From positions 1 to 64,000 of the forward strand of contig NZ_QOCG01000011.1 of assembly GCF_003318235.1 (NCBI RefSeq): a DNA stretch of 64,000 nt, written 5' to 3'. Of this stretch, positions 43,299 through 63,261 are shown piece by piece (the stretch's first letter is position 1; each line of letters begins with the position of its first letter). The translations under genes were made by a program, and so were the position numbers. The DNA comes from Loktanella sp. D2R18 (GTDB taxonomy: Bacteria; Pseudomonadota; Alphaproteobacteria; Rhodobacterales; Rhodobacteraceae). The notes beneath the pieces are model-generated. The model was given only the letters and a program-made list of their open reading frames with translations. It searched no databases and was not told the DNA's origin.

Positions 43299-43453
43299 AT
43301 TGGCCCTTTGATCCTATCGCGGCCTAAGCTAAGCGGTTCGGCGCGCTAAGAAAACCAATTAATCTGCGGTACAGCTATGGTTTGGCACCGTTTTAAGCAC
43401 TATACATGTCCCATCAGGCTGCGGCGCGCCGCCAACTAAAGGAACTCACCAGA

Positions 43454-44620: not shown

Positions 44621-45636
44621 TGGCGCAGAAAACCGTTCTTGTGACCGGCGCAGCTGGGTTTATCGGCTTTCATCTGTCACAGCTTTTGATGGCCGAAGGT
44701 TTCCGCGTTGTCGGGCTAGATAGCCATAATGACTATTACGATCCGGCCTTAAAATCCGCACGTGAAGCCCAACTTATTGCCAATGCCGACTATACGTCCG
44801 TAAGGGGCAGGGTTGAAGAGCCTAGTCTTTTAATGGACCTCTTTGCGGCACATCGGTTTGACGCTGTGGTGCATTTAGCCGCGCAAGCTGGCGTACGCTA
44901 TTCCATTGAAAACCCGCGCGCCTATACCGAGGCCAACCTCATGGGCACATTTGAATTGCTTGAAGCCGCACGCGCGTATCCGCCAAAACATCTGCTCTTG
45001 GCGTCGACAAGCTCTGCCTATGGTGCCAACACTAAAATGCCATACCGCGAGACGGATCAAGCGGACCACCAAATGTCCTATTACGCCGCGACGAAAAAGG
45101 CGTCAGAGGCCATGGCCCACAGCTATGCACATCTTTACGATCTGCCGGTCACCATGTTCCGGTTCTTTACTGTTTACGGGCCTTGGGGGCGCCCAGATAT
45201 GGCGCCCAATCTGTTTACCAGCGCAATCATGGCCAACGCGCCGATCAAAGTGTTTAACCACGGCGATATGAAACGCGACTTTACCTATGTTGTCGATCTG
45301 GTTCGTGGAATCCGCTTGTTGGTTGATGCCGTACCAGAACGTCCCGTTGATGGGGTTGTGCCAGAGGGCGATAGCCTGTCACCAGTCGCACCGTGGCGGA
45401 TTGTGAATATTGGGAATGGTGAATGCGTGCCGCTGATGGATTTCATCGGAGCGATTGAGCGCGCGTCGAACCACAAGGCGCACAAACAAATGCTACCGAT
45501 GCAACCCGGTGACGTGCCCGCAACCTGGGCTGACAACAGCTTGCTCAAATCGCTCACGGGCTATGCGCCGGAAACGAGCGTGACTGACGGTATCGCAGAA
45601 TACGTCAAATGGCACAGGGCGTATTACAAAATCTAA
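44620..45636 (+). CDS. UDP-glucuronate 4-epimerase (NAD-dependent)
   Basis: The 338-residue SDR epimerase has TGAAGFIGFHL at the N-terminus, the YYDPALK motif typical of UDP-glucuronate 4-epimerases, and the YAATK catalytic pair (Tyr155, Lys159). With ugd it would supply UDP-galacturonate for surface polysaccharide. Other C4-epimerase specificities are possible, but genetic coupling to ugd favours this one. Confidence 0.88.
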   Translation: MAQKTVLVTGAAGFIGFHLSQLLMAEGFRVVGLDSHNDYYDPALKSAREAQLIANADYTSVRGRVEEPSLLMDLFAAHRFDAVVHLAAQAGVRYSIENPRAYTEANLMGTFELLEAARAYPPKHLLLASTSSAYGANTKMPYRETDQADHQMSYYAATKKASEAMAHSYAHLYDLPVTMFRFFTVYGPWGRPDMAPNLFTSAIMANAPIKVFNHGDMKRDFTYVVDLVRGIRLLVDAVPERPVDGVVPEGDSLSPVAPWRIVNIGNGECVPLMDFIGAIERASNHKAHKQMLPMQPGDVPATWADNSLLKSLTGYAPETSVTDGIAEYVKWHRAYYKI

Positions 45637-47300: not shown

Positions 47301-48308
47301 TTACTTATCTTGGACAATTGCGTTTTCCCATTCACTGATGAATGCGTCTCGTTTCATTTGATCCAGATAGGTCATCAGCGCGGGATTTAGATTGATTGTC
47401 CGTTGCGCAATATTGTCGTCAAAGCCAGACAAAGGCGGCAAAGGAAACGTGAGCGGATCAGCCGCTGTTTGGAGCGCCAAAAGGTGACGAACGAAGCTTT
47501 CCGCGTGTTCAGGGTTTGTCGCATTCGCAGAAACCAAAACTGTTCGCATCATGGTTATTGGGAAATCTGAGGGCAGGATCACCATCAACTCATCTGAAAT
47601 CTCTGCCTGGTTGCGCGCATAACTTCCCAAAACGTTGTAAGCCAACAACAAATCACCCTCTCGCAAATCGTCGATCATCTGCCCCGAGCAACAATAAAGT
47701 TGAGCATCCATGCGCCCCATGACCTCCATTAGGCGCCAATAGGTTTCAGACGCGCGGGCATCTTGTGTTGCGAAAAGATAGCCCAGTCCCGATTGCCTTA
47801 CATCATAGGTTCCGACCCGTCCTTGAAATCGGTGGGGATGCTTACGCATCAATTCAATTAGATCCTGTCGACTACTTGGAGTGGGGAGATCGCTCAGTGC
47901 GTGGCGATTAATGACAATAGCAGCGGGTTCGGAGGTAAAGGCAAACAAGCTATCGCCCCATTGCGCCCAGTCAGGATGCTCGACATCCAAAACAGGGACC
48001 GCGAAACCATCGTTCGTCAGTTTTAGTTGCAGATCCATTGCACTTGAAATCACAACGTCGAACTGTTCAGGTGTCGCGCGAAATATGCGGTCGATGTCGG
48101 CAGTTCCGGTGACAACATACTCGACCGCAATGTTTGAGTATGACGCGATGAAGTCTTCAATAATGGGCGCAAAAAACGACGTGTCAGTGCTGGAGAGGAT
48201 ACGTAGCGGGGCTTGATCGGATGAGCCAAAGGTTTGCTGATCCTCCCATTCTTGGGAGAAGCCAAAAACGGGAAAGAAAAGCGCGATTAGAAGAACAATG
48301 TAACGCAT
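47301..48308 (-). CDS. Periplasmic substrate-binding protein (iron/phosphoglycerate type) linked to TctE-like kinase
   Basis: The 335-residue protein has a signal peptide (MRYIVLLIALFFPVFGFSQ) and the fold of class II binding proteins: LRILSSTDTSFFAPIIEDF, VEYVVTGTADI, FDVVISSAMDLQ, then a YNVLGSYARNQ hinge segment. No permease gene is nearby. It overlaps the 3' end of the sensor kinase gene by 22 bp in the same operon, as in PgtC-type three-component systems where a binding protein feeds the kinase. A sensing role is therefore favoured over transport. Confidence 0.78.
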   Translation of the reverse strand: MRYIVLLIALFFPVFGFSQEWEDQQTFGSSDQAPLRILSSTDTSFFAPIIEDFIASYSNIAVEYVVTGTADIDRIFRATPEQFDVVISSAMDLQLKLTNDGFAVPVLDVEHPDWAQWGDSLFAFTSEPAAIVINRHALSDLPTPSSRQDLIELMRKHPHRFQGRVGTYDVRQSGLGYLFATQDARASETYWRLMEVMGRMDAQLYCCSGQMIDDLREGDLLLAYNVLGSYARNQAEISDELMVILPSDFPITMMRTVLVSANATNPEHAESFVRHLLALQTAADPLTFPLPPLSGFDDNIAQRTINLNPALMTYLDQMKRDAFISEWENAIVQDK

Positions 48309-49654
48309 GCGCCGCCCTCCGGTCTGTTACTCAGGGTCATTTTGCCGCCATGTACGACAGCAACTTCTTGTGCGATGGTCAGCCCCAGTCCGGATCCGAC
48401 CTTGTTACCCATGTTTTTACCGCGTACGAAACGCCCAGAAAGCGTTTCAATTTCATCGGGGGCGAACCCCTGACCATCGTCGTAGACACTGACCGATAAA
48501 GTCGGCGACTTGGATATCTCTACACAGACCCCCGTTTCTGAGGGGGCATATTTCACAGCATTGTCGATCAGGTTGCGCATGGCATTTTGGAGTAGGATCG
48601 GATCGCCATGCAGCGTTGCGGAACTGTCGAGTTTCATAGTGAATGTGATGTCTTTCATCTCGGCCACGGGTGTCATGCTCACAACCAATTCCTGTAACAA
48701 TTCTGTCAAATCGACTCGTGGCATTTCAAGGTTCTCGGCGCGAAACGTCACCATTGCGTGATCCAGCAATTGCCCAGCTGCACGACTGCTTTCATCAATC
48801 GCGCGCACCATCGCTTGCAGTGACTTGCGATTGTCCTCGCGATCGACGCGCTGCAGCGTCGCCTCAGCATGTGAACGCACCGTTGCAAGAGGCGTTCGAA
48901 TACGATGCGCCGCCTCGGCGATGAAATCTTCGGATTGGGTCAGCGTGTGATCTAGTCGCGACATGAATGTATTTAGCGACGCAACCAAGGGCGCCATCTC
49001 AGAGGGGACAGGTTTGGTCACGGGGCTTAGATCCTGCGGACCCCGGCGGGTCACGGATGTTGTAAGACGGTGCATTTGACGGCTGGTGGTCGACGCGGCC
49101 CAAATCGCAAGCGCCGATGACATAAGAAAGAAACCAAGCCCAAGTAACGCAACATTGCGGGAAATCGCATGCAAAGTGCTGGATAAGGCGTCCTGCGTCT
49201 GGGCGATGGAAACAAACACGTTCCGAGGGCCATCAGATCCGATCAGCACCCTTGCTCCTGTAGCGATGCGCAATTGATCACCGTTAAATGTCGTGTTTTC
49301 GAATGCAGTACTTTCTGGCGCCACATTTCGCGGGACAACAAGCCAATCGTAGCCTGAAAGCAGGGTCCCGTCTTCGTAAATGGCATAGAATACGCGGTCA
49401 TCTGCTTGTGTATTCAGCATCGATAACGACGAATAGGGAAAGTCCAGCGTCACGCGCCCATCGCGGATTACGGCGGTATCCAACACGGATGACATCGATG
49501 CATTCAGGATATTATCTTGACCTTGTTGCGCGACCTGCGTGGCAAGCACACGTACGGCCACAAACAATACTACCGCCAACAACGCGGCCCCACCGGTTAG
49601 GATAAGCGCCAAGCGGTTTCGCAACGATCCTGAAACGATCACATTAGCCGTCAT
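48287..49654 (-). CDS. TctE-like sensor histidine kinase
   Basis: The 455-residue kinase has TM1 about 12-36, a periplasmic sensor of about 130 residues (2CSK_N-like), TM2 about 167-187, a HAMP-like linker, HisKA with AHRIRTPLATV (His250), N-box NLIDNAVKYAP and G-boxes DDGQGFAPDE and GSGLGLTIAQ. The TctE family senses tricarboxylates such as citrate. It lies between the binding protein and response regulator genes, and its start overlaps the regulator stop by 11 bp. Confidence 0.9.
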   Translation of the reverse strand: MTANVIVSGSLRNRLALILTGGAALLAVVLFVAVRVLATQVAQQGQDNILNASMSSVLDTAVIRDGRVTLDFPYSSLSMLNTQADDRVFYAIYEDGTLLSGYDWLVVPRNVAPESTAFENTTFNGDQLRIATGARVLIGSDGPRNVFVSIAQTQDALSSTLHAISRNVALLGLGFFLMSSALAIWAASTTSRQMHRLTTSVTRRGPQDLSPVTKPVPSEMAPLVASLNTFMSRLDHTLTQSEDFIAEAAHRIRTPLATVRSHAEATLQRVDREDNRKSLQAMVRAIDESSRAAGQLLDHAMVTFRAENLEMPRVDLTELLQELVVSMTPVAEMKDITFTMKLDSSATLHGDPILLQNAMRNLIDNAVKYAPSETGVCVEISKSPTLSVSVYDDGQGFAPDEIETLSGRFVRGKNMGNKVGSGLGLTIAQEVAVVHGGKMTLSNRPEGGACVTLFF

Positions 49655-50312
49655 GATCTAACCTGTAACCCAACCCACGTAGCGTTACGATCCGCACTTC
49701 TGATCCTTCCAAATGTTTACGCAGACGCCCGATATAGACCTCAATCGCGTTCTCGGATACGTCGTCATCGTATGAAAAAAGTCGATCCACTAGCTTTTGC
49801 TTTGAGAAGACCTGCCCCTTGGTGGCGATAAGGAGTTCAAGCAATCGCAATTCACGATTGCGAAGGTTTATGGTGGTCCCATTGACGCGCAACTGGCCGG
49901 ATACTGCATTGAATTCGACACCTCCGATGGTCTGAACTGATTGCGCAGATCCGGCATTTCGTCGCAAAACAGCACGGCAGCGCGCTTGCAATTCGGCATG
50001 ATCGAACGGCTTGGTTAAGTAGTCATCTGCCCCTAAATCCAGCATACCGATTCGGTCCGATATCTGGCTTCGCGCCGTCAAAACAATAACCGGAGTGAGG
50101 TTTTTGCGGGCACGATGCTGTTTTAGAAAACTCCGCCCATCGCCATCCGGCAACATGATATCTAGTAAGATCAGGTCGTACTCTCCGGTGTCGACAAAGG
50201 CGCATGCCTCAGCGATTTTTGCAGCGTGATCAACCGTGTGCCCATCCAGACGGATGCGCGAGGCAACCGCCTCGGCAAGTTCCAGATTGTCTTCAACAAG
50301 AAGGTATTTCAT
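49644..50312 (-). CDS. TctD-like response regulator (OmpR family)
   Basis: The 222-residue protein has a receiver domain with the acidic pair ED (7-8), phospho-acceptor Asp51 in LILLDIMLPDGDG, and Lys in DDYLTKPF, then a winged-helix DNA-binding domain ending VRIVTLRGLGYRL. It is divergent from the transporter operon. In the characterised Salmonella system TctD activates tctCBA, so the 106-bp gap between 50312 and 50419 should hold its binding site. Confidence 0.92.
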   Translation of the reverse strand: MKYLLVEDNLELAEAVASRIRLDGHTVDHAAKIAEACAFVDTGEYDLILLDIMLPDGDGRSFLKQHRARKNLTPVIVLTARSQISDRIGMLDLGADDYLTKPFDHAELQARCRAVLRRNAGSAQSVQTIGGVEFNAVSGQLRVNGTTINLRNRELRLLELLIATKGQVFSKQKLVDRLFSYDDDVSENAIEVYIGRLRKHLEGSEVRIVTLRGLGYRLDHDG

Positions 50313-50418
50313 CGCTGTAATCTCACTAAATAGACGCGTGACAGGTTTATGTCAGGTTGCCGTGATTATCGTCACGCACGGAGCCGTAGGGAGAACGGCT
50401 ACCAAATGGGAGAGTAAC

Positions 50419-51405
50419 ATGACAACTTTGAAAATGGGCCGTCGTGCCCTGATCGCCGCAACTGCGGCAACACTTGGTTTTGGTACGCCAGTCTTTGCGG
50501 ACGGCCATCAGGTTCTTGACGAAATTCACTTTATCATCCCCGGCGGCGCAGGTGGCGGTTGGGATGGCACCGCGCGCGGCACTGGCGAAGCCTTGACCGA
50601 ATCTGGCCTTGTTGGCAGCGCGTCTTATGAAAACATGTCTGGCGGCGGCGGCGGCGTTGCGATCGGATACATGATCGAAAACGCCGAAAGCCTTGAAGGC
50701 ACATTGATGGTCAACTCGACCCCGATCGTGATCCGGTCATTGACGGGCGTTTTTCCGCACAACTTTCGTGACCTGACACTGGTATCAGGCACAATTGGTG
50801 ACTACGCGGCAATCATTGTAGGCAAAGACAGCCCCGTCAACAACATGGACGACCTGCTGGCAATCTATGATGCTGACCCTGCTGGCACACCAATCGGTGG
50901 CGGTTCGGTTCCGGGCGGTATGGACCACCTTGTTGCTGCCATGGTTATGGAAGCATCGGGTCGTGACGCGCTTGGCGTGAACTACATTCCATACGACGCT
51001 GGCGGTACAGCCATGGCAGCATTGCTGTCCGGTGAAATCGCGGCCCTGTCGACGGGCTTCTCTGAGGCAGTTGACCTTTCCAATGCAGGTGAAGTCAAAA
51101 TCATCGGTGTAACAGCAGCCGAACGCGTTGACGCCGCCCCAGACGCCATGACGATGATGGAACAGGGTATCGACACCACATTCGTCAACTGGCGCGGCTT
51201 CTTTGGCGCACCGGACATGTCTGATGAAAAGCTGGCGCAATACCAGTCAGCGATCGAAGCCATGTACGACACCCCCGAGTGGGAATCCGTGCGCGCGCGC
51301 AACGGTTGGGTCAACATCCACAACTCTGGCGACGAATTCCGCACCTTCCTCGAAGAGCAGGAAGCAGTAATCGGCGATCTGATGACGAAACTAGGTTTTC
51401 TCTAG
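50419..51405 (+). CDS. tctC: Tripartite tricarboxylate transporter, binding protein TctC
   Basis: The ATG at 50419 follows GGGAGAG. The 328 residues have a signal peptide cleaved after VFA (residue 27) and a mature chain with the family's FIIPGGAGGGWDGTARGTGEAL opening, the MSGGGGGVAIGY loop and a NYIPYDAGGTAMAALLSGEI segment. It binds a carboxylate ligand in the periplasm and hands it to TctAB. Unlike the large Bug clan it keeps the Asp-Gly of TctC proteins. Confidence 0.9.
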   Translation: MTTLKMGRRALIAATAATLGFGTPVFADGHQVLDEIHFIIPGGAGGGWDGTARGTGEALTESGLVGSASYENMSGGGGGVAIGYMIENAESLEGTLMVNSTPIVIRSLTGVFPHNFRDLTLVSGTIGDYAAIIVGKDSPVNNMDDLLAIYDADPAGTPIGGGSVPGGMDHLVAAMVMEASGRDALGVNYIPYDAGGTAMAALLSGEIAALSTGFSEAVDLSNAGEVKIIGVTAAERVDAAPDAMTMMEQGIDTTFVNWRGFFGAPDMSDEKLAQYQSAIEAMYDTPEWESVRARNGWVNIHNSGDEFRTFLEEQEAVIGDLMTKLGFL

Positions 51406-51487
51406 ACGTTCGCGTCATTACGAAAACACGACGGTGCGCTCAGGCGCTCCGTCACGTCTACTTTGAATTTCTTTGGGGAATTGTTTC

Positions 51488-51970
51488 ATGGCTTTGGATC
51501 GTTGGATCGCACTTATTCTTTTGGGGATCTGTATCGCTTATGGATACACCGCTTGGTTCGCGATGGATGCCAATCTTGCGCCATTCATGCGCCGCAATCC
51601 CATATGGCCCAGCACATTTCCCAAAGTTCTTTCCGTCTTGGGCGTCGCTGCCTCGCTCATCATTCTAGTTGGGCTTGAGAAAAGCGAAGAAAAGATAGGC
51701 GAAATCGACCATCGCCGTTTGGGGGATTACTTCATCGGGCAAGCGGTTGTTTTGTTGGCCCTAATGGTCGTCTATGCGCTTTGTCTTCGTCCACTCGGTT
51801 TCTTGTTTTCAACATCGGCGTTCCTGATCATCGGGTCGTTCATCTTGGGCGAACGCAAATGGCATGTGATGATCCCCGTTGCTTTCATCGCCACCGGCTC
51901 GGTCTGGTATTTGGTCCAAGAAGTGCTCGGCATTTTCTTGCGCCCCCTGCCAATGTTTATGGGAGTTTGA
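51488..51970 (+). CDS. tctB: Tripartite tricarboxylate transporter, small membrane subunit TctB
   Basis: The ATG at 51488 gives 160 residues with four predicted spans (about 5-25, 46-62, 84-102, 111-140), as is typical of TctB. The RPLGFLFSTSAFLIIGSFIL run and LGERKW motif are conserved in the family. It partners the large subunit TctA, whose gene follows one base after the stop codon. Confidence 0.88.
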   Translation: MALDRWIALILLGICIAYGYTAWFAMDANLAPFMRRNPIWPSTFPKVLSVLGVAASLIILVGLEKSEEKIGEIDHRRLGDYFIGQAVVLLALMVVYALCLRPLGFLFSTSAFLIIGSFILGERKWHVMIPVAFIATGSVWYLVQEVLGIFLRPLPMFMGV

Positions 51971-51971
51971 T

Positions 51972-53453
51972 ATGCTCGAAGGTATCCTGATTGGTCTGCA
52001 AACGGCCCTGTCACTGCAAAATTTGCTCGTCGTCATCGGCGGCTGTCTGATCGGCACGTTCATCGGCATGTTGCCCGGTCTTGGGCCGATGTCGATTATC
52101 GCAATCATGATCCCCGTGGCGATCACGATGGGTGACCCATCCGCCGCTTTGATCCTGCTTGCGGGCGTCTATTACGGCGCGATATTTGGGGGATCAACGT
52201 CCTCAATCTTGCTGAATGCACCCGGAGTCGCCGGAACAGTAGCCTCATCTTTTGATGGCTATCCCATGGCGCGACAAGGCAAGGCTGGCAAGGCCCTGAC
52301 AATCGCCGCCATTGCCAGTTTTGCAGGCGGTACAATCGGCGCAATCTTATTGATGATCTTCGCGCCGATGCTGTCGACCGTCGCGTTATTGTTCCATTCA
52401 CCAGAATACTTTGCACTGATGGTTGTTGGCTTGTCCGCCATTGCGGCTTTCGCAGGGCCCGGCCAGGTGACCAAGGCACTGTTGATGACCATCCTTGGCT
52501 TGGTCATGGCAACCGTGGGCGAAGGCGCATTGTTCAACTTGCCACGATTTACGGGCGGCATCATGGACCTGCAATCGGGCTTTGGCTTCATCACACTGGC
52601 CATGGCAATGTTTGCCCTACCCGAAGCAATATTTCTCGTTCTTAAACCAAAGAACCTTGGCGATGACGGAGGCGAAATCAAAGATTTGCGCATCAGCCGT
52701 GCAGAAGCCCGCGCAATCGCGCCAGTCATTGGCCGCCAATCCATTCAGGGCTTTTTCATCGGGGTCTTACCCGGGGCCGGCGCGACAATCGCTTCGTTCC
52801 TTGGCTATGCAGTGGAACGCAACATCGCCCCGAAACATGAACAAGAGGAATTCGGCAAGGGATCTGTCAAAGGCCTGGCTGCTCCTGAAACGGCCAACAA
52901 CGCGGCCTGCACAGGATCGTTCGTGCCACTGTTGACGCTAGGCATTCCGGGGTCAGGAACCACGGCCATTTTGCTGGGCGCGTTGATTGCATTGAACGTG
53001 ACGCCGGGCCCACGTCTGATGATCGACGAACCACAGATTTTTTGGGCAGTTATCATGTCCATGTTCATCGGCAATCTGGTGCTATTGGTTCTGAACCTAC
53101 CTTTGATCCCATACATCGCGAAATTGCTGGCTATTCCGCGCAATTATCTAATCCCTTTCATCCTATTTTTCACGCTGATGGGGGCCTACATCGGCCAAAA
53201 CAATGCGACAGAATTGCTCATGCTCGTCGGGTTCGGCGTGTGCGGCATCGCGTTGAAATTCGCCAACTATCCGCTGCCACCTCTGCTGATCGGATTTATC
53301 TTGGGCGGCATGATGGAAGATAACTTCTCTCGCTCGATGCAGCTTTATGGCGGTGTTTCGTTTGTTTTGGAGCGGCCTATGACACTTGGTCTGCTGGTGA
53401 TCGCCGCTGGCCTGATCATTGTCCCTGTCTTGCGATCACGCCTCGCCAAGTGA
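51972..53453 (+). CDS. tctA: Tripartite tricarboxylate transporter, large membrane subunit TctA
   Basis: The ATG at 51972 gives 493 residues, close to the usual 500. Two related halves carry the family signatures: GMLPGLGPMSIIAIMIP and YGAIFGGSTSSILLN in the first, and GVLPGAGATIASF and FVPLLTLGIPGSGTTAILLGAL in the second. It has about 12 spans and takes up tri- or dicarboxylates using an ion gradient with TctB and TctC. The operon is closed by the gene-free region after 53453. Confidence 0.95.
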   Translation: MLEGILIGLQTALSLQNLLVVIGGCLIGTFIGMLPGLGPMSIIAIMIPVAITMGDPSAALILLAGVYYGAIFGGSTSSILLNAPGVAGTVASSFDGYPMARQGKAGKALTIAAIASFAGGTIGAILLMIFAPMLSTVALLFHSPEYFALMVVGLSAIAAFAGPGQVTKALLMTILGLVMATVGEGALFNLPRFTGGIMDLQSGFGFITLAMAMFALPEAIFLVLKPKNLGDDGGEIKDLRISRAEARAIAPVIGRQSIQGFFIGVLPGAGATIASFLGYAVERNIAPKHEQEEFGKGSVKGLAAPETANNAACTGSFVPLLTLGIPGSGTTAILLGALIALNVTPGPRLMIDEPQIFWAVIMSMFIGNLVLLVLNLPLIPYIAKLLAIPRNYLIPFILFFTLMGAYIGQNNATELLMLVGFGVCGIALKFANYPLPPLLIGFILGGMMEDNFSRSMQLYGGVSFVLERPMTLGLLVIAAGLIIVPVLRSRLAK

Positions 53454-54378: not shown

Positions 54379-54450
54379 ATGGTCTCTTCGACTACGCTTT
54401 TTCATGCCCTGCTTGCAGGCCCTAAAGAGATGGGTGAATCTCGTGATTGA
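54379..54450 (+). CDS. Possible 23-codon leader peptide overlapping the first eCIS gene
   Basis: An ATG at 54379 is preceded by AGGGGG at a good distance. Its 23-codon frame ends at 54450, overlapping the GTG start of the DUF4255 gene by 17 bases in a different frame. This would couple translation of the first eCIS gene to the leader. It is a prediction from one sequence only. Confidence 0.4.
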   Translation: MVSSTTLFHALLAGPKEMGESRD

Positions 54451-55033
54451 TGCGGCGCTGTCTCTGACGGTGTCCAAGTTAAACGGGCATCTTTCTGGCC
54501 GCTTTGGTGCGCCCGAAGATATCGCAGTGCTTGCGCCACTGACCGATCCTGATGGAAAAGTCTCTGAATTGACCCGCAATCGTCTTGCGCTTTTCATCAC
54601 CAATATCTCCGAAGACAGCGTGCCCCGCCGTGGTCAGGGTCGCGGCGCGCCGTTGGCCGGGTTCACCGCTGGCGAAGACCCTTTGCATCTGGACGTCTAC
54701 GCGATGCTCGCGGCCTCTTATGATGCAAATATCTACGGCGAAGGGCTCAAGATGCTTTCCGCCGCTTTGATGTATTTTCAAAGCTACCCGATGATGACCC
54801 CGCAAAATACGCCCAATATGCCCAAGGGCATGCAGCAGCTATCGTTTGAGATCAGCAATCTGCGCGTCGAAGAGATGGGACAGATGTGGGGCAATCTGGG
54901 CGGCCGTTACGTGCCTTCGGTCATGTTTAAAATCCGTACAGTCACATTGACCTCTGGCGCGATTACCTCGCTGAAACCGGCAATCCGCAAACCACGCCGC
55001 AGTCTGTTTCCGCTCAGGGAGGCCCAGTCATGA
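54434..55033 (+). CDS. eCIS tail terminator/cap protein, DUF4255 (Pvc16-like)
   Basis: The GTG at 54434 gives 199 residues and starts VNLVIDAALSLTVSKLNGHL, the standard DUF4255 N-terminus, followed by LALFITNISEDSVPRR and a DVYAMLAASYDANIYGEGLKML helix. In Afp/PVC particles this protein caps the end of the sheath-tube tail; in phages the equivalent would face the head. It heads the eCIS operon here, whereas in PVC it comes last. The stop overlaps the next start by 4 bp. Confidence 0.85.
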   Translation: MNLVIDAALSLTVSKLNGHLSGRFGAPEDIAVLAPLTDPDGKVSELTRNRLALFITNISEDSVPRRGQGRGAPLAGFTAGEDPLHLDVYAMLAASYDANIYGEGLKMLSAALMYFQSYPMMTPQNTPNMPKGMQQLSFEISNLRVEEMGQMWGNLGGRYVPSVMFKIRTVTLTSGAITSLKPAIRKPRRSLFPLREAQS

Positions 55034-55767
55034 GCTTCCATATCGCATTGTCATTGCGTTTGACCCACGAGTATTGGGGGGATGAAACCCCGCCGCTGCG
55101 TATCCTGCCAACCGACGTGCACCATTTTACAAGGGCCGGATTTTTGGCAAAGCCAGCCCCTGCCCGATTGGATGTCGTCGCTGAAACCGCACTGTTAACG
55201 ACGCCAACCCTGCTTGATTTTGATGTCTTCAGCACCAGCCCGGATACATATGTACTGACCAAGGGGCTGGCCGCCGAAAAAGTTCCGCTGTTTGATTTGG
55301 GCACCGAAGACGAATTGCAGCTTTCAGATGCGCATCCTGTCCAAGCCCCGGCACGGATGCCCGGTGACCCTTTGCTGCGGCTACGCGTATCGATTGATGT
55401 TTCTGGCACGTACGAAGTGACCTTGCATTTGCAAGCGGTAAGTGCCCTTTGGGCCTATTACTTTACCGGTGAAAATGCTGCCGAACGCCTGCAAATTTTG
55501 GATACTGCGGGCAGCACATCCTTCGAAGATCTTGGTCGCACCGCGATCACGGAGGGCCATTTCGCCCGCGTCCTACGCTCTGACACGCCCATAAAGATGT
55601 CTTACCGATCTGACGCGCGTTTTGCGCTAGAGGCGCGGCAAGACCCGCCCTTTGACCCTATTACCCTGATCCCGGTGCTTCCTGCGGCCGGTGTCAATCT
55701 GCGCCCTACAGATGACCCTGCGGCCGCAGCCCCACTTCAATCCGACATTTTCGTCAGCTTATGGTAA
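55030..55767 (+). CDS. Unknown eCIS-associated protein
   Basis: The 245-residue product begins SFHIALSLRLTHEYWGD, then PLRILPTDVHHFTRAGFLA, and is beta-rich throughout with a terminal DIFVSLW strand. No signal peptide, membrane span or catalytic motif is seen. It is fixed between the cap gene (4-bp overlap) and the sheath gene (13-bp gap), so it is part of the particle operon. A cap adaptor or baseplate accessory is possible, but no homology can be named. Confidence 0.65.
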   Translation: MSFHIALSLRLTHEYWGDETPPLRILPTDVHHFTRAGFLAKPAPARLDVVAETALLTTPTLLDFDVFSTSPDTYVLTKGLAAEKVPLFDLGTEDELQLSDAHPVQAPARMPGDPLLRLRVSIDVSGTYEVTLHLQAVSALWAYYFTGENAAERLQILDTAGSTSFEDLGRTAITEGHFARVLRSDTPIKMSYRSDARFALEARQDPPFDPITLIPVLPAAGVNLRPTDDPAAAAPLQSDIFVSLW

Positions 55768-55780
55768 AGGAGAATTTCCA

Positions 55781-57976
55781 ATGGTCATGAAGACCCCCGG
55801 CGTCTACATCGTCGAAAAAAGCGCCTTCCCGAACTCGGTCGTGCAAGTCGCCACGGCGGTGCCCGCCTTTATCGGCTATACAGAACGCGCCGCAAACGGG
55901 AATGTATCGCTGCTTGATACCCCGTTCCGGATCACGTCATTTTCTGAGTATATGAGCTATTTCGGTGGCCCACCAAAGCCACAATACGAATTGGTCCCTT
56001 ACAAACACTTTGACGGTACATCGCCGCTATCAGCGGATGGGGCCGCCAAGAAAGACGCCCTGCCCCGCGCGGTGTTTTCAGTTGGCGATGCCAAGTTTGA
56101 ATTTGTGCAAAATAACCCGGCCTTCGCCTTATTCGGTGCGATGCGCCTGTTTTTCCAAAACGGCGGCGGCGCTTGCTATGTCACCTCTATCGGTGGCTAT
56201 GAGGTCAAAAACGAAGCTGGAGAAATCGAAGACAATGTTATCGACGCTGATCTGATGCTGGTTGCGATCAACGGGTTGAAAAAAGAACCTGAGCCCACAA
56301 TGCTCGTGATCCCAGAGGCAACCCGCCTTGCCCGTCAAAACGCCGTCAAAGTACAGCAAGCCATGCTGAAACACTGCGGCAACGACATGAAAAACCGTTT
56401 CGCGATTTTGGATATCTTTGCCGGTCACCTTGACCAAAAAGACCCGCTGGGCAACCCGGTTGCGACATTCCGCAATGACGTTGGGATCAACAATCTCGAC
56501 TTTGGCGCGGCCTACTACCCGTGGCTGGATACGTCGATTTTCCAATCGCGTGACTTTAGCTACGAAAACATCGTCGGGGCCAGCCACCCGAAAATGATGT
56601 CGCTCATGCGTCAGGCAATGAAAGCTGGCAAAGAGCTCGCAACAGAGATCAATCGCATCTCGGCCCCAACGGTTTCTGGCGATTTCACAATCTCTGTGCC
56701 TAAAAGCGGCACAGTGAAGGTCACGCCGCATGATCTCACGGCCGAAGACGATGAAAGCGACAAAACCGGTTTGAACTATAAGATCGCCAAGACCGATCTC
56801 ATGGGCGGCACATTTGTGAATGCTGACGGCGCCGAAGTTTGGGAATTCACCCAAGATATGTTGGGCGATGAAGAAACCGCAAGTTCGATTAGCTTTCAGC
56901 ATGATGGTGCCTCTGCCAAGGGTAAGATCGAATTGGTTGTCAGCGACGAGGCCGAAATGGCCACCGATACATTGACCATGAATATGGAAATGATCGGTGC
57001 GATCCTACTGCCTGCCGCGATCAAGGAACAAACGGCAACCGCCGAAATTGACGTCGCCTCTGATCACCCTGACGCGGACGCTGGATCGATTGTCCTGTCC
57101 GATGCCACGTCATCAGATGGCAAGGTTAAGGCTGTCGAAGGTGTTGGGACATGGACGGTCGCGGATGCGGGCAGTGTCAGCTTTGCGCCAGACCCCGCCT
57201 TTGCAGGCCCTGAAGCCAAAGCGACATATACGATCTTTAAAGAGGACGAACTTATCGCAAAACAAGAGCTTCGGGTCTTGGTCGATGGCACCAGCCCTGT
57301 TGTTGCCCAAGGCCCCTCGCCCGCGATGATCGACAAAACATTGCGATCTTTGGTGCCGCTTTACGGCACGATGATGGACACAATTGCTAAGCGTGAAAAT
57401 AGCATGGCACCGGGTGCAGGCATGGCTGGACTTTATACAATGGTCGACAATAGCCGTGGTGTTTGGAAAGCGCCTGCAAACATCTCGATGAACTCTGTGG
57501 TTGGGCCGAAGGTCAATATTAACCACGAAGAACAAGAGAACCTGAACGTCTCAACAACGGGTAAATCGATTAACGCGATCAGACCGTTTGTAGGTGAAGG
57601 TACGCTTGTTTGGGGCGCGCGGACGTTGGACGGCAACAGCCTTGACTGGCGCTACATCAACGTGCGCCGCACGATGATCATGATCGAGGAATCGCTGCGT
57701 TTGGCATCAAAGGCTTATGTCTTTGAACCCAATACCGCCAACACATGGATCACGATGAAATCAATGACCGAAAATTTCCTGACATCTGTCTGGAAACAAG
57801 GCGGTCTTGCAGGCGCTGTGCCGTCAGACGCGTTCAGCGTGCATGTGGGCTTGGGCGATACGATGACACCTGTTGATGTTCTCGAAGGGATTCTTCGGAT
57901 CACGGTTCTGGTCGCTGTCGTGCGTCCGGCAGAATTCATCGAAATCACCTTCCAGCAGCAAATGCAGAAATCTTAA
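55781..57976 (+). CDS. eCIS contractile sheath protein with inserted adhesin-like domains
   Basis: The ATG at 55781 follows AAAGGAGA. The 731 residues show the phage/eCIS sheath plan: KTPGVYIVEKSAFPNSVVQV at the N-terminus, TAVPAFIGYTE, an RLFFQNGGGACYV strand, then a C-terminal core starting near 515 and ending VVAVVRPAEFIEITFQQ. Between about 299 and 502 an extra beta-rich region resembles a CSPG/cadherin-like domain (299-390) and a CshA-type repeat (432-502). Only one sheath gene is seen, against three in PVC. The sheath contracts to drive the tube into the target. Confidence 0.9.
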   Translation: MVMKTPGVYIVEKSAFPNSVVQVATAVPAFIGYTERAANGNVSLLDTPFRITSFSEYMSYFGGPPKPQYELVPYKHFDGTSPLSADGAAKKDALPRAVFSVGDAKFEFVQNNPAFALFGAMRLFFQNGGGACYVTSIGGYEVKNEAGEIEDNVIDADLMLVAINGLKKEPEPTMLVIPEATRLARQNAVKVQQAMLKHCGNDMKNRFAILDIFAGHLDQKDPLGNPVATFRNDVGINNLDFGAAYYPWLDTSIFQSRDFSYENIVGASHPKMMSLMRQAMKAGKELATEINRISAPTVSGDFTISVPKSGTVKVTPHDLTAEDDESDKTGLNYKIAKTDLMGGTFVNADGAEVWEFTQDMLGDEETASSISFQHDGASAKGKIELVVSDEAEMATDTLTMNMEMIGAILLPAAIKEQTATAEIDVASDHPDADAGSIVLSDATSSDGKVKAVEGVGTWTVADAGSVSFAPDPAFAGPEAKATYTIFKEDELIAKQELRVLVDGTSPVVAQGPSPAMIDKTLRSLVPLYGTMMDTIAKRENSMAPGAGMAGLYTMVDNSRGVWKAPANISMNSVVGPKVNINHEEQENLNVSTTGKSINAIRPFVGEGTLVWGARTLDGNSLDWRYINVRRTMIMIEESLRLASKAYVFEPNTANTWITMKSMTENFLTSVWKQGGLAGAVPSDAFSVHVGLGDTMTPVDVLEGILRITVLVAVVRPAEFIEITFQQQMQKS
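56675..57286 (+). other. Adhesin-like insertion in the sheath (domain region)
   Basis: Codons 299-502 of the sheath gene. The first part has the pattern VTPHDLTAEDDESD...FTQDML...ISFQHDG...LVVSD, as in cadherin_3/CSPG repeats of large bacterial adhesins. The second has VEGVGTWTVADAGSVSFAPD...FAG, as in CshA-type fibrillar repeats. The insertion should face outwards from the sheath cylinder. Confidence 0.65.
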
Positions 57977-57999: not shown

Positions 58000-58458
58000 A
58001 TGGCAGATGATGGCTCCGCCCAAACGCAGGCGATTTGGCCGCTTCCAAAGTTCCACTTTCAAGTAAAGTGGGACGATACGGAATTGGCATTTCAAGAGGT
58101 CTCAGGCCTCGATATCGAAACCCAGCCGCTTGAATATCGCGCCGGCAATAACCCGGTATTTTCCACGATCAAAATGCCCGGCATGCTGAAGACCGGCAAT
58201 ATCACCATGAAAAAAGGCGTCTTTGTCAAAGACAATGCCATTTGGGATTGGTTTGCTGAAATCAAGATGAACACGATCACCCGTAAGGCGCTGACGATTT
58301 CATTGCTGGACGAAGCAGGTGCCCCGACGATGGTCTGGAAAGTGCAAAACGCCTTCCCGGTCAAAGTCAGCGGCACCGATCTAAAGGCCGAAGGCAATGA
58401 AGTCGCCGTTGAAAGCATCGAAATCGCCCATGAAGGGTTCGTGATCGAGAACGCCTAA
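58000..58458 (+). CDS. eCIS inner tube protein 1 (Pvc1-like, gp19 family)
   Basis: The 152-residue protein has the T4 gp19/Hcp-like tube fold: FHFQVKWDDTELAFQEVSGLDIE at the N-terminus, EYRAGNNPVFS, MPGMLKTGNITMKKGVF and a C-terminal AVESIEIAHEGFVIE strand. Hexameric rings stack into the tube that carries cargo. It is followed after one base by a second, shorter-diverged tube paralogue. Confidence 0.9.
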   Translation: MADDGSAQTQAIWPLPKFHFQVKWDDTELAFQEVSGLDIETQPLEYRAGNNPVFSTIKMPGMLKTGNITMKKGVFVKDNAIWDWFAEIKMNTITRKALTISLLDEAGAPTMVWKVQNAFPVKVSGTDLKAEGNEVAVESIEIAHEGFVIENA

Positions 58459-58459
58459 G

Positions 58460-58915
58460 ATGGACGATTTCAGCGCACCAACAGCGTTTCACTTTGACGT
58501 GGCTTTTCAAGGCAGTGATCCGGATATTTCGGACACTGCCTTCCAAGAGGTCACGGGGTTAGAGGTCGAAATGACGACCGAACCTTTGCAAGAAGGCGGT
58601 GAAAACAGGTTTGTGCATAATCTTCCAAAACAGGTCAAGCACAAGAACCTGTCGCTCAAACGCGCTCTGACGGGGGACGATAGCGGCCTTGTGACATGGT
58701 GCCAAAACACGCTTGAGCAGGGGTTCGGGACGCCAATCAAACCGCAAGATTTGTTGATTTCCCTACTCAACGAAGAGGCCGAACCAGTTGCAAGCTGGTC
58801 AGTGACAAATGCGTTTCCGGTTAAGTGGACGACAGGAAATTTCGACGCGATGAAGAATGAACTGGCAATTGAAACCGTTGAGCTAAGCTACCTGACGCTC
58901 GAGAGGAAAAGCTAA
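58460..58915 (+). CDS. eCIS inner tube protein 2 / baseplate tube initiator (Pvc5-like)
   Basis: The 151-residue paralogue of the main tube keeps the fold (FHFDVAFQG, FQEVTGLEVEM, the HKNLSLKRAL strand, ETVELSYLTLERK) but differs clearly in sequence. In Afp/PVC systems the second tube protein forms the adaptor ring between the tube and the spike-baseplate. Its stop overlaps the DUF5908 start by one base. Confidence 0.88.
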   Translation: MDDFSAPTAFHFDVAFQGSDPDISDTAFQEVTGLEVEMTTEPLQEGGENRFVHNLPKQVKHKNLSLKRALTGDDSGLVTWCQNTLEQGFGTPIKPQDLLISLLNEEAEPVASWSVTNAFPVKWTTGNFDAMKNELAIETVELSYLTLERKS

Positions 58916-59100
58916 TGGCGATCGAAATCGGCAATCTTACTGTACGCGGCACATTTGGCGACAGCCGGACCCCGGAAGGCGGTATATCAGAGGATAAAGT
59001 GCGTGATATAACAGTCGGTATTCGCAAAGAAATGCGTGAACTCATCAAGAAAGAGATCGCCGCCAGTGAACAGCGCATCAAAGAGGGTCTGCTGTCATGA
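58915..59100 (+). CDS. DUF5908 small eCIS protein (Pvc6-like)
   Basis: The 61-residue product starts AIEIGNLTVRGTF and ends in an amphipathic helix (KEMRELIKKEIAASEQRIKE). This short DUF5908 pattern is found at the same position, after the second tube gene, in Afp/PVC operons (Pvc6). Its structural role is unclear. It overlaps the LysM-protein start by 4 bp. Confidence 0.82.
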   Translation: MAIEIGNLTVRGTFGDSRTPEGGISEDKVRDITVGIRKEMRELIKKEIAASEQRIKEGLLS

Positions 59101-59783
59101 CCAAACTCACGATTACGCGCTGCGACACATCTGTTTCGCAAATCACCGCCAAATCGGGCGCAGCGAATGTCTTTACGACCACGATCAACCCATCCGCGTT
59201 TAACCGCAAGTATGCCACGAAGTTTTCGGGTACGGGCGGCGGGTCCGATGACGCCATCGGCAAGGCGGCACCCGTTCCCAAGTTTTCAGCGTCTGAACCC
59301 GAAGAAGTGTCATTCACGCTGACGCTAGATGGCACCGGCGTTGTACCCGATGCGGCAGGTACCACCGTGGCGGCGCAAATCGATAAATTACGCAGTATCG
59401 CCTATGATTATTCTGGCGATGACCATGAACCTGATGCGGTGCAGATCGACTGGGGGACGGAACTAAAAGGGTTTCAAGGGCGTCTGACCAGCCTTGATAT
59501 CGACTACACATTGTTTGACCCAGACGGCGCACCATTACGCGCGACGATGAAGCTCAAGTTCATCGAGGCTTTGACCGATGCCCAAGTTGCGCTGGAAGCC
59601 AACAATCAATCCCCCGACCTGACCCACCTTGTCCGCGTGGTTGAGGGTGACACCCTGCCCCTTTTATGTGAACGCATCTATAAGGACGTCACTAAATACC
59701 TTGAAATCGCACGGTTTAATGATCTCGACGGTTTCGCAAGACTAGAGCCGGATACGCTGCTGCGTTTCCCGCCAATGAGGTAA
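59097..59783 (+). CDS. eCIS baseplate hub protein with LysM domain (Pvc7-like)
   Basis: The 228-residue protein has an N-terminal CIS tube-like domain (ITAKSGAANVFTTTINPSAF, EPEEVSFTLTLDGTGVVP) and a C-terminal LysM-like segment (THLVRVVEGDTLPLLCERIYKD). This matches Pvc7/Afp7, part of the hub joining tube and spike; the LysM part clamps neighbouring subunits, as with T4 gp53. The gene lies in the expected place between DUF5908 and spike. Confidence 0.85.
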   Translation: MTKLTITRCDTSVSQITAKSGAANVFTTTINPSAFNRKYATKFSGTGGGSDDAIGKAAPVPKFSASEPEEVSFTLTLDGTGVVPDAAGTTVAAQIDKLRSIAYDYSGDDHEPDAVQIDWGTELKGFQGRLTSLDIDYTLFDPDGAPLRATMKLKFIEALTDAQVALEANNQSPDLTHLVRVVEGDTLPLLCERIYKDVTKYLEIARFNDLDGFARLEPDTLLRFPPMR

Positions 59784-59786
59784 CCC

Positions 59787-61568
59787 ATGGCCACCTCACC
59801 CGTCGCGAATGTCAGCGGTCCGCTTGGGATCAGTGTAAAAATCAACGGCAGTGCAATTGCGGAAGATATCGCTGTGAACGGGATCACTGTCACACTCGAT
59901 ATCAACCGGGTGCCGCAGGCAACTGTCCGATTGGCGGATGGATCGGTCGCGACCAATGAATTTCCGTTGATTGACGGCACTGATTTTGAGGTCAGCACCC
60001 CGATAGAGATCGCAGCATTCTTCGGCGCTGGCGCCGCGCAAACCCTGTTTAAGGGCATTATCACCGCGACCCGGTTGCGCATTAGCGGTGGTGGCGCGGG
60101 TGAGTTGGAACTTACCTGCCGGGACAAGGCCATTGCCTTAATGGACATTCGCAAAACCACCAGCTTTGCCCAGATGAAAGACAGCGATGCGATGGCAGCC
60201 ATCATTGGTGATGCAGGGCTTTCGGCCGCTGTTAAAGCCACCACTGCCGACCCCAGCGATCTGGTCCAATATGATTGCAGCGATTGGGACTTCCTGCGCC
60301 AGCTAGCCGACCGGAACGGTCAGATTATCATTGTCGACGATGGCAAAGTGACCACGGACGCCCCCGACCCTGCTGTGGCCGCGACGATGGGGCTGACGCT
60401 TGGCATTGATATTTTGGATTTTGACTGCAAGATCGACACGGCCTCATTGATCAAAGATAGTGCCGTAAGCGGCTGGGATCCTGCGTCACAAGCAGTCACG
60501 ACCGAAACCAGCGACAGCGCTGACACGGGGTCATGGGGCAATGCAACCTATGCCGATCTAAGCAAAGTCACAGGCGACCGTAGCCATACAGCCACGACCC
60601 CCTATGCCATTGGTCAGGTCGCGCTCGCGGATGTGGCTAAGGCGCGTGCGATGCGCGCACCGATGAGCGCGATTTCAGGGCGCTGCAAATATCCGGGATC
60701 TGCCTTGGCTGAGATTGGTAAAACCATTGAAATTACGGGCGTTGGCGACCGTTTAGGCGGGACCGCCTATGTTTGCGGCATCACCCATGAAATTTCTGCG
60801 GGCACCTGGGAAACCACTTCGCGGCTTGGCCTGCCAGCCGGCTGGCGATCCGATAGCTTTGGCCTGTCTACGCCCGGCGCTGGCGGGCTGAGCGCGCCGG
60901 TGCAAGGGCTGCATGTGGGCACCGTGCTTGCGATTGTGGACAGCGGCGGTACCAACCCAATGGGCGACGATACGATGATCCAAGTCAGCGTCCCATTGAT
61001 GGGGGAAACCCCTGCTGAACTTTGGGCCCGCTATGCACAGCCCTATGCGACAGGCGGCGCAGGTATTCAGTTTTTACCCGAAACCGGGGATGAAGTCATT
61101 TTGGGCTTTTTATCCGCTGATCCCGGCGCACCTGTCATCTTGGGGTCGATGCATAGCGGCAGCCTTGCCCGCACAAACGAGGCCACCGAAGAAAACGAGC
61201 TTAAGACCATCACAAGCAAGTCAGGTATTCACATCACCTTTGATGACGACAAAGAAATCCTGACCGCCGAGACCCCGGCGGGCCAATCCATCGTGATTGA
61301 CGATGACGCCAGCACAATCACCCTGACCGATGTCACCGGCAACACAATTACGATGTCTGACAGCGGCATGGAAATGGCGGCCCAAGGCACGTTTGACCTG
61401 ACGGCCACAGACACAATCACCATCGCCAGCGATATGGATGTCGAAATCACCGGCATGAATATCAGTGCGACCGCCGATGCGGAAATGACCGCCGAAGGCT
61501 CTGCGAGCGCAAGCTTTAGCTCCTCAGGCCAATGTACGATCGAAGGCTCGATCGTCATGATTAATTAA
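59787..61568 (+). CDS. eCIS spike protein, VgrG/gp27-gp5-like (Pvc8-like)
   Basis: The 593 residues combine a gp27-like barrel region (about 1-330, with a GELELTCRDKAIALMD strand and a DLVQYDCSDWDFLRQLADRNG motif), an OB-fold gp5-like domain (about 375-460: LHVGTVLAIVDSGG...IQFLPETGDEVILGFL, VILGSMHSG) and a repetitive beta-helix (about 480-593). This forms the trimeric needle at the tip. No fused effector domain is visible at the C-terminus. GAGG lies six bases before the ATG. Confidence 0.9.
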   Translation: MATSPVANVSGPLGISVKINGSAIAEDIAVNGITVTLDINRVPQATVRLADGSVATNEFPLIDGTDFEVSTPIEIAAFFGAGAAQTLFKGIITATRLRISGGGAGELELTCRDKAIALMDIRKTTSFAQMKDSDAMAAIIGDAGLSAAVKATTADPSDLVQYDCSDWDFLRQLADRNGQIIIVDDGKVTTDAPDPAVAATMGLTLGIDILDFDCKIDTASLIKDSAVSGWDPASQAVTTETSDSADTGSWGNATYADLSKVTGDRSHTATTPYAIGQVALADVAKARAMRAPMSAISGRCKYPGSALAEIGKTIEITGVGDRLGGTAYVCGITHEISAGTWETTSRLGLPAGWRSDSFGLSTPGAGGLSAPVQGLHVGTVLAIVDSGGTNPMGDDTMIQVSVPLMGETPAELWARYAQPYATGGAGIQFLPETGDEVILGFLSADPGAPVILGSMHSGSLARTNEATEENELKTITSKSGIHITFDDDKEILTAETPAGQSIVIDDDASTITLTDVTGNTITMSDSGMEMAAQGTFDLTATDTITIASDMDVEITGMNISATADAEMTAEGSASASFSSSGQCTIEGSIVMIN

Positions 61569-61582
61569 GAAGGACCATGCTT

Positions 61583-61873
61583 ATGCCACCTGCCGCCCGC
61601 CTGACAGATATGCATGTATGCCCTGCCGCAACCGGCCCTGTGCCTCATGTCGGTGGCCCTATTGTTGGGCCGGGTGAAGCAACGGTTCTGATTGGCAAAC
61701 TTCCCGCGGCGGTCCAAGGCGACAATTGTGTGTGCGTCGGCCCACCAGCGACAATCACAAAAGGCTCTGCCACGGTAATGATCGGCGGCTCACCAGCGGC
61801 ACGCATGGGCGACACAACAGCTCATGGTGGATCGATCGTTGCGGGCTACCCAACCGTGATTATCGGAGGTTAG
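61583..61873 (+). CDS. PAAR-domain tip protein (Pvc10-like)
   Basis: AAGGA precedes the ATG at 61583, which gives 96 residues; an ATG at 61577 is also in frame. The protein is a single PAAR domain: MHVCPAATGPVPHVGGPI, GDNCVCVGPPATITKGS, GGSPAARMGDTTAHGG. It caps and sharpens the spike and usually holds a metal through His/Cys, seen here. In PVC the gp25 gene comes before the PAAR gene; here the order is reversed. Confidence 0.92.
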   Translation: MPPAARLTDMHVCPAATGPVPHVGGPIVGPGEATVLIGKLPAAVQGDNCVCVGPPATITKGSATVMIGGSPAARMGDTTAHGGSIVAGYPTVIIGG

Positions 61874-61875
61874 CC

Positions 61876-62313
61876 ATGGCAAGCGATGATCCGGGTTTTT
61901 TGGGACGTGGCTGGGCGTTTCCGCCACAATTTGATCCGTTTTCCGGCGAGGCAAAATTGGTCACCGCCGATGAAGATATATACCAAAGCCTGCGCATTCT
62001 TTTTGAAACCCGCCCCGGCGAACGCGTCATGCATCCAACGTATGGGTGTCGGATCTATGACTATATTTTCGACCCGCTCAACGCCGCAACCCTGCGCAAA
62101 ATGGAGGCCGCAATCGCGCGCGCAATCTTGTTTTTTGAACCACGCATTGATGTTGATCAGACCAAAGTATCCGTGGCGGACGCGGCCGAAGGAAAGCTGC
62201 TGATCGATCTATACTATCGTGTTCGGCAAACCAATTCGCGCGCCAATGTGGTCTTTCCCTTCTATATTCGCGAAGGCACCTTGGTCACTGACACGCCCGT
62301 GGTCGAAGGGTAG
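61876..62313 (+). CDS. gp25-like baseplate wedge protein (Pvc9-like)
   Basis: GGAGG lies six bases before the ATG at 61876. The 145-residue protein has the gp25/TssE core: LVTADEDIYQSLRILFETRPGE, the invariant EPR-type motif (here FFEPRID) and a beta strand with KLLIDLYYRVRQ. It forms the baseplate wedge that initiates sheath assembly by sharing strands with the first sheath ring. The stop codon is followed after three bases by the lipoprotein gene. Confidence 0.9.
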   Translation: MASDDPGFLGRGWAFPPQFDPFSGEAKLVTADEDIYQSLRILFETRPGERVMHPTYGCRIYDYIFDPLNAATLRKMEAAIARAILFFEPRIDVDQTKVSVADAAEGKLLIDLYYRVRQTNSRANVVFPFYIREGTLVTDTPVVEG

Positions 62314-62316
62314 CTG

Positions 62317-63261
62317 ATGCACGCAAGGCGCCTCATATCACTTGTCACCTGTGCGGGTCTGTTGGGCGGTTGCGATGCTGTCCAAGGGGCCGTCAATGCC
62401 GTCCGCGATACAACCGCCGCCGAAGTCATTGGGCTCGGCCCCGATTTGCCCTGCGACGTGGACCGGTTCGAAGCCAAGCGTATGGCGGGTACTTATTTGC
62501 GCACAGCAAATGGTACGCCGGGCGGCACAATCATCGCGGTGTCAGGCCGCACACACGGTGGAAGCGCACCGCTCCCGCGCAATTTAGCTGTGGATGATCG
62601 CAAAATTCGCGGGCTTGATGCGTCAGCGTTGGGAGATCTGAGCGGACGCAAACATTCCACCGCAGTCCCCATCGCCGCGCTCAACACACGCGCAACACTG
62701 CCACTGGCCTATCAGCTTCGCTATCAGGCCGATGGCGTTGACTACAGCGGCCCTTTGGTCGTCGGTATCCCGCCGTTGCAAGACGACATACCACTTTTGG
62801 GGCAATCATTGCGCATGGGGGCCGTGGCCATCACCTACACAGCCGTCTCAAACGACGGCGCGGTCGAAACCACACAAGCCACCGGCGATTTTGCGATACG
62901 TCTTGGGTTTGGATCGCAGCGCGCCACGTTTTCGATCAGCAATCTTAGGATTGAAAGCGGCCCAGCATTGCCCTTTGCCCGGCTGCGCTGGACCCGACTG
63001 GGGCTTTGCGGTGCGCGGGTTGTCAGTTCTGGGCAGGGGGTGGTCAGCATGTATGACCATGACGACGGGCGCATCCCGACCTTTGGCCCAGACGCCGACC
63101 CAAGCGAAGGTGTGCTGGTATTTCAAGCCACCCAATTTGCAGCCGATCCTACCACTCCGGGCCCAAGTGACCTTGGCGGGGTCTTTGCCATTCAAGGTGA
63201 TGCATCCAGCCTAACGGCAGTCTTTCTTTCGCGTGGCGGCTCAGCCGCAGCAATCCCCTAA
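62317..63261 (+). CDS. Lipoprotein inside eCIS operon, transferrin-binding-like barrel
   Basis: The 314 residues have a type II signal with lipobox LGGC (Cys19). The body is beta-rich; the C-terminal third (IRLGFGSQRATFSISNL..., then GVFAIQGDASSLTAVFLSRG) resembles the 8-strand barrel of surface lipoproteins of the TbpB/Slam-substrate kind. It sits between the gp25 gene and the next baseplate gene with gaps of 3 and 14 bp. A lipoprotein here is not part of the Afp/PVC set. Anchoring of the particle or cell-surface recognition is inference. Confidence 0.65.
   Translation: MHARRLISLVTCAGLLGGCDAVQGAVNAVRDTTAAEVIGLGPDLPCDVDRFEAKRMAGTYLRTANGTPGGTIIAVSGRTHGGSAPLPRNLAVDDRKIRGLDASALGDLSGRKHSTAVPIAALNTRATLPLAYQLRYQADGVDYSGPLVVGIPPLQDDIPLLGQSLRMGAVAITYTAVSNDGAVETTQATGDFAIRLGFGSQRATFSISNLRIESGPALPFARLRWTRLGLCGARVVSSGQGVVSMYDHDDGRIPTFGPDADPSEGVLVFQATQFAADPTTPGPSDLGGVFAIQGDASSLTAVFLSRGGSAAAIP

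Follow-up and report, generated by a model that had tools for sequence, protein, structure and literature searches.

The closest well described relative of the system reported here is AlgoCIS of Algoriphagus machipongonensis, whose sheath protein Alg2 (PDB 7adz, 7ae0 and 7aek) carries outward extra domains. In the accessible text of the AlgoCIS paper, domains I and II of Alg2 form the wall, domains III and IV reach outward with a variable hinge angle for domain IV, and the particle has 23 sheath layers. Loops 288–320 and 430–446 are assigned there to a domain printed 'VI', which is taken here to be domain IV. In type 2 and type 3 phage sheaths too, as the accessible part of PMC9230969 describes them, the N- and C-terminal parts together build the core, and further domains, often Ig-like, are placed away from the tube. 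Such extra domains set most phage sheaths apart from non-phage ones, and adhesion has been proposed for them (PMC9230969, same part).

Extra outward or Ig-like sheath domains are therefore already known, and with the phage and AlgoCIS sheaths published, the idea of a decorated sheath is less new than the original prediction for this locus implied. Unlike the phage examples, the extra domains of the present sheath belong to a bacterial contractile injection system (CIS) and come from adhesin repeat families, which is a new variant. No report of cadherin/CSPG or CshA domains in a sheath was found among the matches listed, which covered sources other than bioRxiv and subscription text. The accessible parts of PMC12923769 and PMC10598620 do not name such sheath domains, and those of PMC13314943, PMC11566945 and PMC8213781 contain nothing on the insert. 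PMC12923769, a catalogue of eCIS receptor-binding domains, does tie Ig-like and cadherin-type domains to eCIS attachment in its accessible text, but it covers tail fibres, and the word 'sheath' never appears in its main text.

A sheath gene in an AlgoCIS-like cluster

The window is the whole stretch of DNA analysed, 64,000 nucleotides, which its relatives place in Rhodobacterales. The sheath gene (55781..57976, + strand, stop codon included; last coding base 57973) encodes a 731-aa protein with a sheath core fold and is the only sheath-matching gene in the genome. Its start at 55781 was picked by alignment at KTPGVYIVE; an alternative GTG upstream, at 55691, would add 30 aa. The N-terminal core (residues 1–267, 55781..56581) aligns to PDB 9r9h_T and AlgoCIS 7adz and is 41–95% identical to that of 80 aligned relatives. 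A helical linker (residues 268–298, 56582..56674; predicted helices 266–279 and 284–291), whose counterpart is present in insert-less relatives, leads into two inserted beta-rich domains, domain A of the Cadherin_3/CSPG type (residues 299–405, 56675..56995) and domain B of the CshA-repeat type (residues 406–502, 56996..57286). The C-terminal core follows (residues 503–731, 57287..57973), all on the + strand; in it, a Pfam scan of the whole protein finds Phage_sheath_1C at residues 622–725 (42.2 bits vs. a cut-off of 26.9), with Phage_sheath_1 below threshold (22.4 vs. 31.4). The original prediction had proposed an insertion at 56675–57286 between recognisable N- and C-terminal cores. These positions are exactly residues 299–502, and both cores are intact in alignments to PDB sheaths and in an alignment of 81 sheaths. 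The closest named relative among the best 80 of 494 is from Yoonia tamlensis (95% identity over the best segment). A phage or plasmid origin of the entire sheath was rejected, as a place covering 80% of the protein was found in none of 64 matched phage records and none of 121 matched plasmid records.

The cluster starts, on the same strand, with a cap protein (Pvc16_N, DUF4255; 54404..55033; Pfam E = 1.5e-25) and an adjoining 245-aa protein (55030..55767), which has no significant Pfam family, has homologues in related clusters and by its position is possibly a cap adaptor. Downstream of the sheath, again on the + strand, are two inner tube proteins of the Phage_T4_gp19 family (58000..58458, Pfam E = 1.6e-48; 58460..58915, Pfam E = 1.2e-42), an Afp7-like CIS_tube protein (59097..59783, Pfam E = 1.7e-42), an Afp8/VgrG-like spike/hub protein (59787..61568, Phage_base_V E = 7.8e-15), a PAAR tip protein (61577..61873, Pfam E = 1.1e-23) and a gp25-like baseplate protein (61726..62313, Pfam GPW_gp25 at residues 81–170, E = 1.6e-25). 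The listed gp25-like reading frame opens at a TTG within the PAAR gene, and its true start is probably further in. A putative lipoprotein of 314 aa (62317..63261, + strand) precedes a 1295-aa baseplate protein, also on the + strand, which begins at 63276, runs to the end of the window at 64000 and continues to contig position 67163 (baseplate J-like, PDB 9rce_A, E = 8.5e-71). Farther along the contig are a conserved 270-aa protein (67160–67972, between the Afp11-like and Afp12-like genes), an Afp12-like frame recognised by eye, a tape measure protein, an AAA ATPase and a 1050-aa protein. Upstream, the seven frames scanned (43406–53453) belong to sugar-nucleotide, solute-binding, two-component and tricarboxylate-transport genes. 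The proteins encoded here include a cap, tube, CIS_tube, spike, PAAR, gp25, baseplate, tape measure and AAA ATPase, so the cluster is that of a contractile injection system; it is AlgoCIS-like and has this gene as its one sheath gene.

Identity of the inserted domains

Both domains pass Pfam gathering cut-offs: Cadherin_3 (PF16184) at residues 303–395 (31.0 bits, cut-off 25.5, E = 2.6e-7) and CshA_repeat (PF19076) at residues 416–485 (33.5 bits, cut-off 27, E = 6.8e-8), with Big_9 also matching residues 418–487 (29.1 bits, cut-off 23.6). Among 29 inserts, namely the present one and those of 28 homologues, Cadherin_3 is matched by 26 and CshA_repeat by 24 at E ≤ 1e-3. Because these inserts are divergent (94 and 91% identical to the present one in two homologues, 20–63% in the other 26), the matches, judged at the level of sequence, are not due to chance. 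A profile of the insert searched against PDB sequences returned a CshA chain first (6szc, E = 4.2e-5) and CSPG4 second (7ml7, E = 0.0065), so that the by-eye assignment of the original prediction, a cadherin_3/CSPG-like domain followed by a CshA-type one, holds for both. The NCBIfam CshA model TIGR04225 matches at E = 1e-8, although its 35.9 bits lie below the whole-protein cut-off of 60; this could be expected of a single copy, as the model is of type 'repeat'.

The predicted model, fold matches and alignment agree on beta-rich, Ig-like domains between the N and C parts of the sheath, and domain A has a predicted CSPG-repeat-like fold. The fold of the insert is predicted confidently and that of the C core less surely (blocks within residues 551–731 at 50–92); an initial model from five sequences was discarded (pLDDT 44). 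The insert is acidic, with a pI of 4.1 and 19.1% D+E, vs. 10.9% in the N core. In the sheaths of L032, L065–L068, L072 and L078, domain B contains an extra Ala/Asp/Lys-rich stretch of about 45 aa.

Alignment places the insert in the slot of the outward Alg2 domains

The closest solved sheath by sequence is that of PDB 9r9h/9r9i/9r9n/9rce (519 aa, E = 7.6e-172), to which both cores align; it differs in that the insert is absent, with about 54 residues (244–298) between the aligned cores. A full-text literature search for the code 9r9h found no paper. In the alignment to AlgoCIS, conserved stretches stop at chain residue 243 and restart at 488, corresponding to 254 and 527 in the present sheath. 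The two domains form an arm set into a loop that connects two core helices, and the alignment puts them in the same slot as domains III and IV of Alg2. Since those domains reach outward, the arms very probably do so too, exposed away from the tube, and the outward position that the original prediction had given them thus gains support from homology. With six-fold rings along the whole sheath, and AlgoCIS having 23 layers, such a particle would carry at least 100 arm pairs. Alg2 was absent at E ≤ 1 from the matches of the Rhodobacterales insert profile among PDB sequences, so its extra domains are not recognisably of the same families. They were accordingly set aside as relatives of the insert, although absence from such a search is no proof.

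Arms in this position could also cement the sheath, with neighbouring arms touching each other or the next subunit, steadying the extended state and tuning stability or contraction. We consider this unlikely. It draws on the accessible text of the AlgoCIS paper, in which domain IV of the distal layer has its tip near a neighbour's domain II, and on the accessible part of PMC9230969, in which cementing is an alternative; domain II of phage 812 has been suggested to stabilise the sheath disk.

Presence and absence among relatives

Relatives were sampled as the best 80 of 494, found in 78 loci, so the following counts favour sheaths like the query. The aligned set of 81 comprises the present sheath, 75 of those 78 loci and five others (L032, L035–L038); left out were fragments (L075, L087, L096, L050), duplicates (L031, L033, L034) and more distant sheaths (L039–L049). 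A row set termed A4 holds 75 of 85 prepared rows, with near-duplicates, L113 and L123 omitted. Two domains are present in 25 of the 81 sheaths, one in four and none in 52.

Comparison of sheath lengths and inserts among relatives, which the original prediction had suggested, revealed a variable middle part (241–306 aa in 25 sheaths, 133–161 aa in four and 39–99 aa in 52) and a constant 216 aa after residue 516 in all 81. The insert is thus an optional module that, as far as aligned sequences tell, is gained and lost while the C core stays free of indels. Its absence from 52 sheaths with alignable cores means that it is neither the ordinary domain of all eCIS sheaths, the outcome that would have overturned the original prediction, nor needed for such sheaths in general, which speaks against cementing.

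Both domains were recovered in all 24 two-domain relatives when 4024 ORFs of loci L031–L128 were searched with profiles of A and B made from 22 two-domain sheaths. These profiles and Pfam agree that Roseovarius lutimaris and R. marisflavi have A but lack B and that L073 has B but lacks A; in L074 our profile gives a weak B, and Pfam scores CshA at 26.8 against the cut-off of 27. By these searches the domains are lost singly, a second point against cementing. R. gaetbuli has neither domain and keeps a shortened remnant around EINKIGAP. It is nested with R. marisflavi in the careful tree (100/100), and the remnant and the nesting together indicate a clean loss.

All two-domain sheaths are from Paracoccaceae or Roseobacteraceae records or from the family of the present strain (L032); four insert-less sheaths from that family (L035–L038) are more distant. 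In a quick tree of 50 of the 81 rows the two-domain sheaths make up one side of a branch (SH-aLRT 83). In the careful tree, of 38 of the 81 rows, their grouping is weak (65/64, 67% of 200 bootstrap trees), and without a well-supported two-domain clade the history of gain and loss is unsure.

Three Roseovarius sheath genes, one each in R. marisflavi (L076), R. lutimaris (L080) and R. gaetbuli (L091), are orphans that share a non-CIS neighbourhood, and no gp19-family tube was found anywhere in the three genomes. Their cores have dN/dS of about 0.2–0.3, looser than CIS-linked pairs; they are either leftovers or sheaths with a new job. The sheath of L077 (10001–11629), from a Paracoccaceae metagenome-assembled genome, has no homologues of the present CIS genes within 10 kb, and tube genes are on other contigs.

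Divergence and origin of the inserts

Median identity to the present sheath over the 24 two-domain relatives is 76% for the N core, 45% for A, 46% for B and 85% for the C core, and in all 24 both inserted domains are less identical than both cores. This is unlike a conserved subunit interface, as cementing would require. Nei–Gojobori dN/dS, calculated for 12 hand-picked pairs (in several, dS approaches or exceeds 1, a range in which the estimate is crude), is 0.02–0.13 for A (10 pairs with finite dS), 0.02–0.24 for B (11) and 0.01–0.07 for the C core (12). By these estimates the inserts are fast-evolving yet under purifying selection, mostly looser than that on the core, and the domain-wide averages of the 12 pairs give no sign of positive selection. 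The fast evolution also fits plain exposure without a receptor.

Repeats of giant bacterial adhesins form long tandem arrays. The insert belongs to the same Pfam families as the CshA fibril and the CSPG/Cadherin_3 repeats of such adhesins, with one copy of each per sheath subunit vs. tandem arrays in the one example that was read. Searched over 385 genomes of the class, the insert profile matched 10 others at E ≤ 1e-8, the open frames concerned being 455 to 10,025 aa long; these frames may include a sheath. The large-frame protein that was read is a repeat protein with the FTQ..DG..F.HDGG signature of the insert, and the motif FTQ..(I/L)..G.(V/I).F.HDG is common to the insert and the repeat protein with the 10,025-aa frame. 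A second protein in the strain's own genome, with a signal-like start by eye, is matched in the domain B part of the profile. From these matches the A+B module looks like adhesin repeats captured by the sheath, a direction that we infer.

Captured repeats might simply be tolerated on an exposed loop, serving at most as a spacer or as a shield against proteases or antibodies. Modules gained and lost without C-core indels, with only a scar in R. gaetbuli, are what such passive decoration would leave, but we think it very unlikely given the purifying selection on both A and B in pairs with measurable dS and the persistence of the two Pfam signatures across long divergence.

Addition of beta-rich modules to sheaths appears to recur. 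A carboxypeptidase-regulatory-like domain (CarboxypepD_reg) precedes the C-terminal sheath domains in three of nine sheath paralogues scanned in the present strain's family, all from other CIS (L042:5022-7649, + strand; L045:7265-9475, − strand; L049:5106-7439, + strand; one above and two below the Pfam cut-off). At a different site, the N core of the Janthinobacterium fluminis sheath (L123:9998-11989, + strand) is longer by over 100 Ala/Glu-rich residues, with an N part of 392 aa vs. 267 in the present sheath.

A fibre candidate and putative membrane-associated proteins

No long fibre gene was recognised among the cluster reading frames scanned. The 270-aa protein has no family match and has homologues also in insert-less outgroup clusters; it is a candidate mini-fibre, with an LDVNG motif that we take to be shaft-like. 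Its presence makes uncertain the contrast drawn in the original prediction with particles decorated on tail fibres alone. Short eBAP2 mini-fibres are the most abundant group in the accessible text of PMC12923769.

Two further proteins bear on the possibility that the particle stays in or on the producer cell, its arms fastening the sheath to the envelope, an internal membrane or some other cellular structure. One is the 1050-aa protein at the cluster end (contig 73509–76661; L133:3509-6661), which has no Pfam family, a signal-like start and C-terminal membrane-like segments by eye, and homologues in 26 of 31 genomes examined, with none in the three orphan-sheath genomes. The other is the 314-aa putative lipoprotein, which has a lipobox-like LLGGCD by eye and no family match; in a set of 394 genomes it has matches in seven others, and for two of these E is no better than 6e-4 to 7e-4. 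A thylakoid-anchored contractile system has been described (PMC8894136, accessible part), the third closest solved sheath sequence is that of a cyanobacterial system (7b5h, Anabaena), and a locus that has no fibre gene candidate might function inside the cell (PMC12923769, accessible part). Tethering nevertheless appears quite unlikely: AlgoCIS, with arms in the same slot, is extracellular, the cluster does hold a mini-fibre candidate, and the 1050-aa protein also occurs in genomes with insert-less sheaths (e.g. those of L079 and L082), so that it leaves the insert unexplained. Within 10-kb flanks the lipoprotein occurs only in two-domain loci, but a tie to two-domain sheaths was dropped when whole genomes were searched, since distant homologues also turned up where the sheath has one domain or no insert (G146, G130).

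Possible function of the arms

We tentatively favour a role in adhesion. Each sheath subunit would bear a two-domain beta-rich arm, a CSPG/Cadherin_3-type A followed by a CshA-type B, directed, by homology with Alg2, outward from the tube and arranged in six-fold rings over the length of the sheath. Through many weak contacts, the arms would engage polysaccharide or protein on target cells, neighbours or the biofilm matrix, and such polyvalent contacts would raise the residence of the particle near a surface; baseplate fibres would still give specific triggering, and the sheath cores would contract as usual. In giant adhesins, CSPG and CshA repeats often serve as the stalk and not as the binding tip, so stalk-type arms may bind nothing. 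An adhesive function is thus plausible and putative: granted exposure, we infer a binding role at slightly better than even chances, and the reading as a whole, exposed CSPG/CshA arms on an AlgoCIS-like sheath that give weak polyvalent adhesion, we put just short of even. A bolder version, improbable on present evidence, would make the sheath itself the receptor-binding surface, with at least 100 CSPG/CshA arm pairs capturing cells or matrix polyvalently, capture uncoupled from the baseplate fibres responsible for triggering, and a change of target achieved in a lineage by exchange or loss of arms at one constant slot.

Environmental Rhodobacterales, named isolates included, offer a matched natural series on closely aligning cores (A and B, A only, B only, and neither with a scar), which makes the role of the arms testable by comparison and clean removal. 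Should the arms prove to bind surfaces, catalogues of eCIS target recognition would need to list sheath domains beside tail fibres; PMC12923769, in its accessible text, considers fibres.
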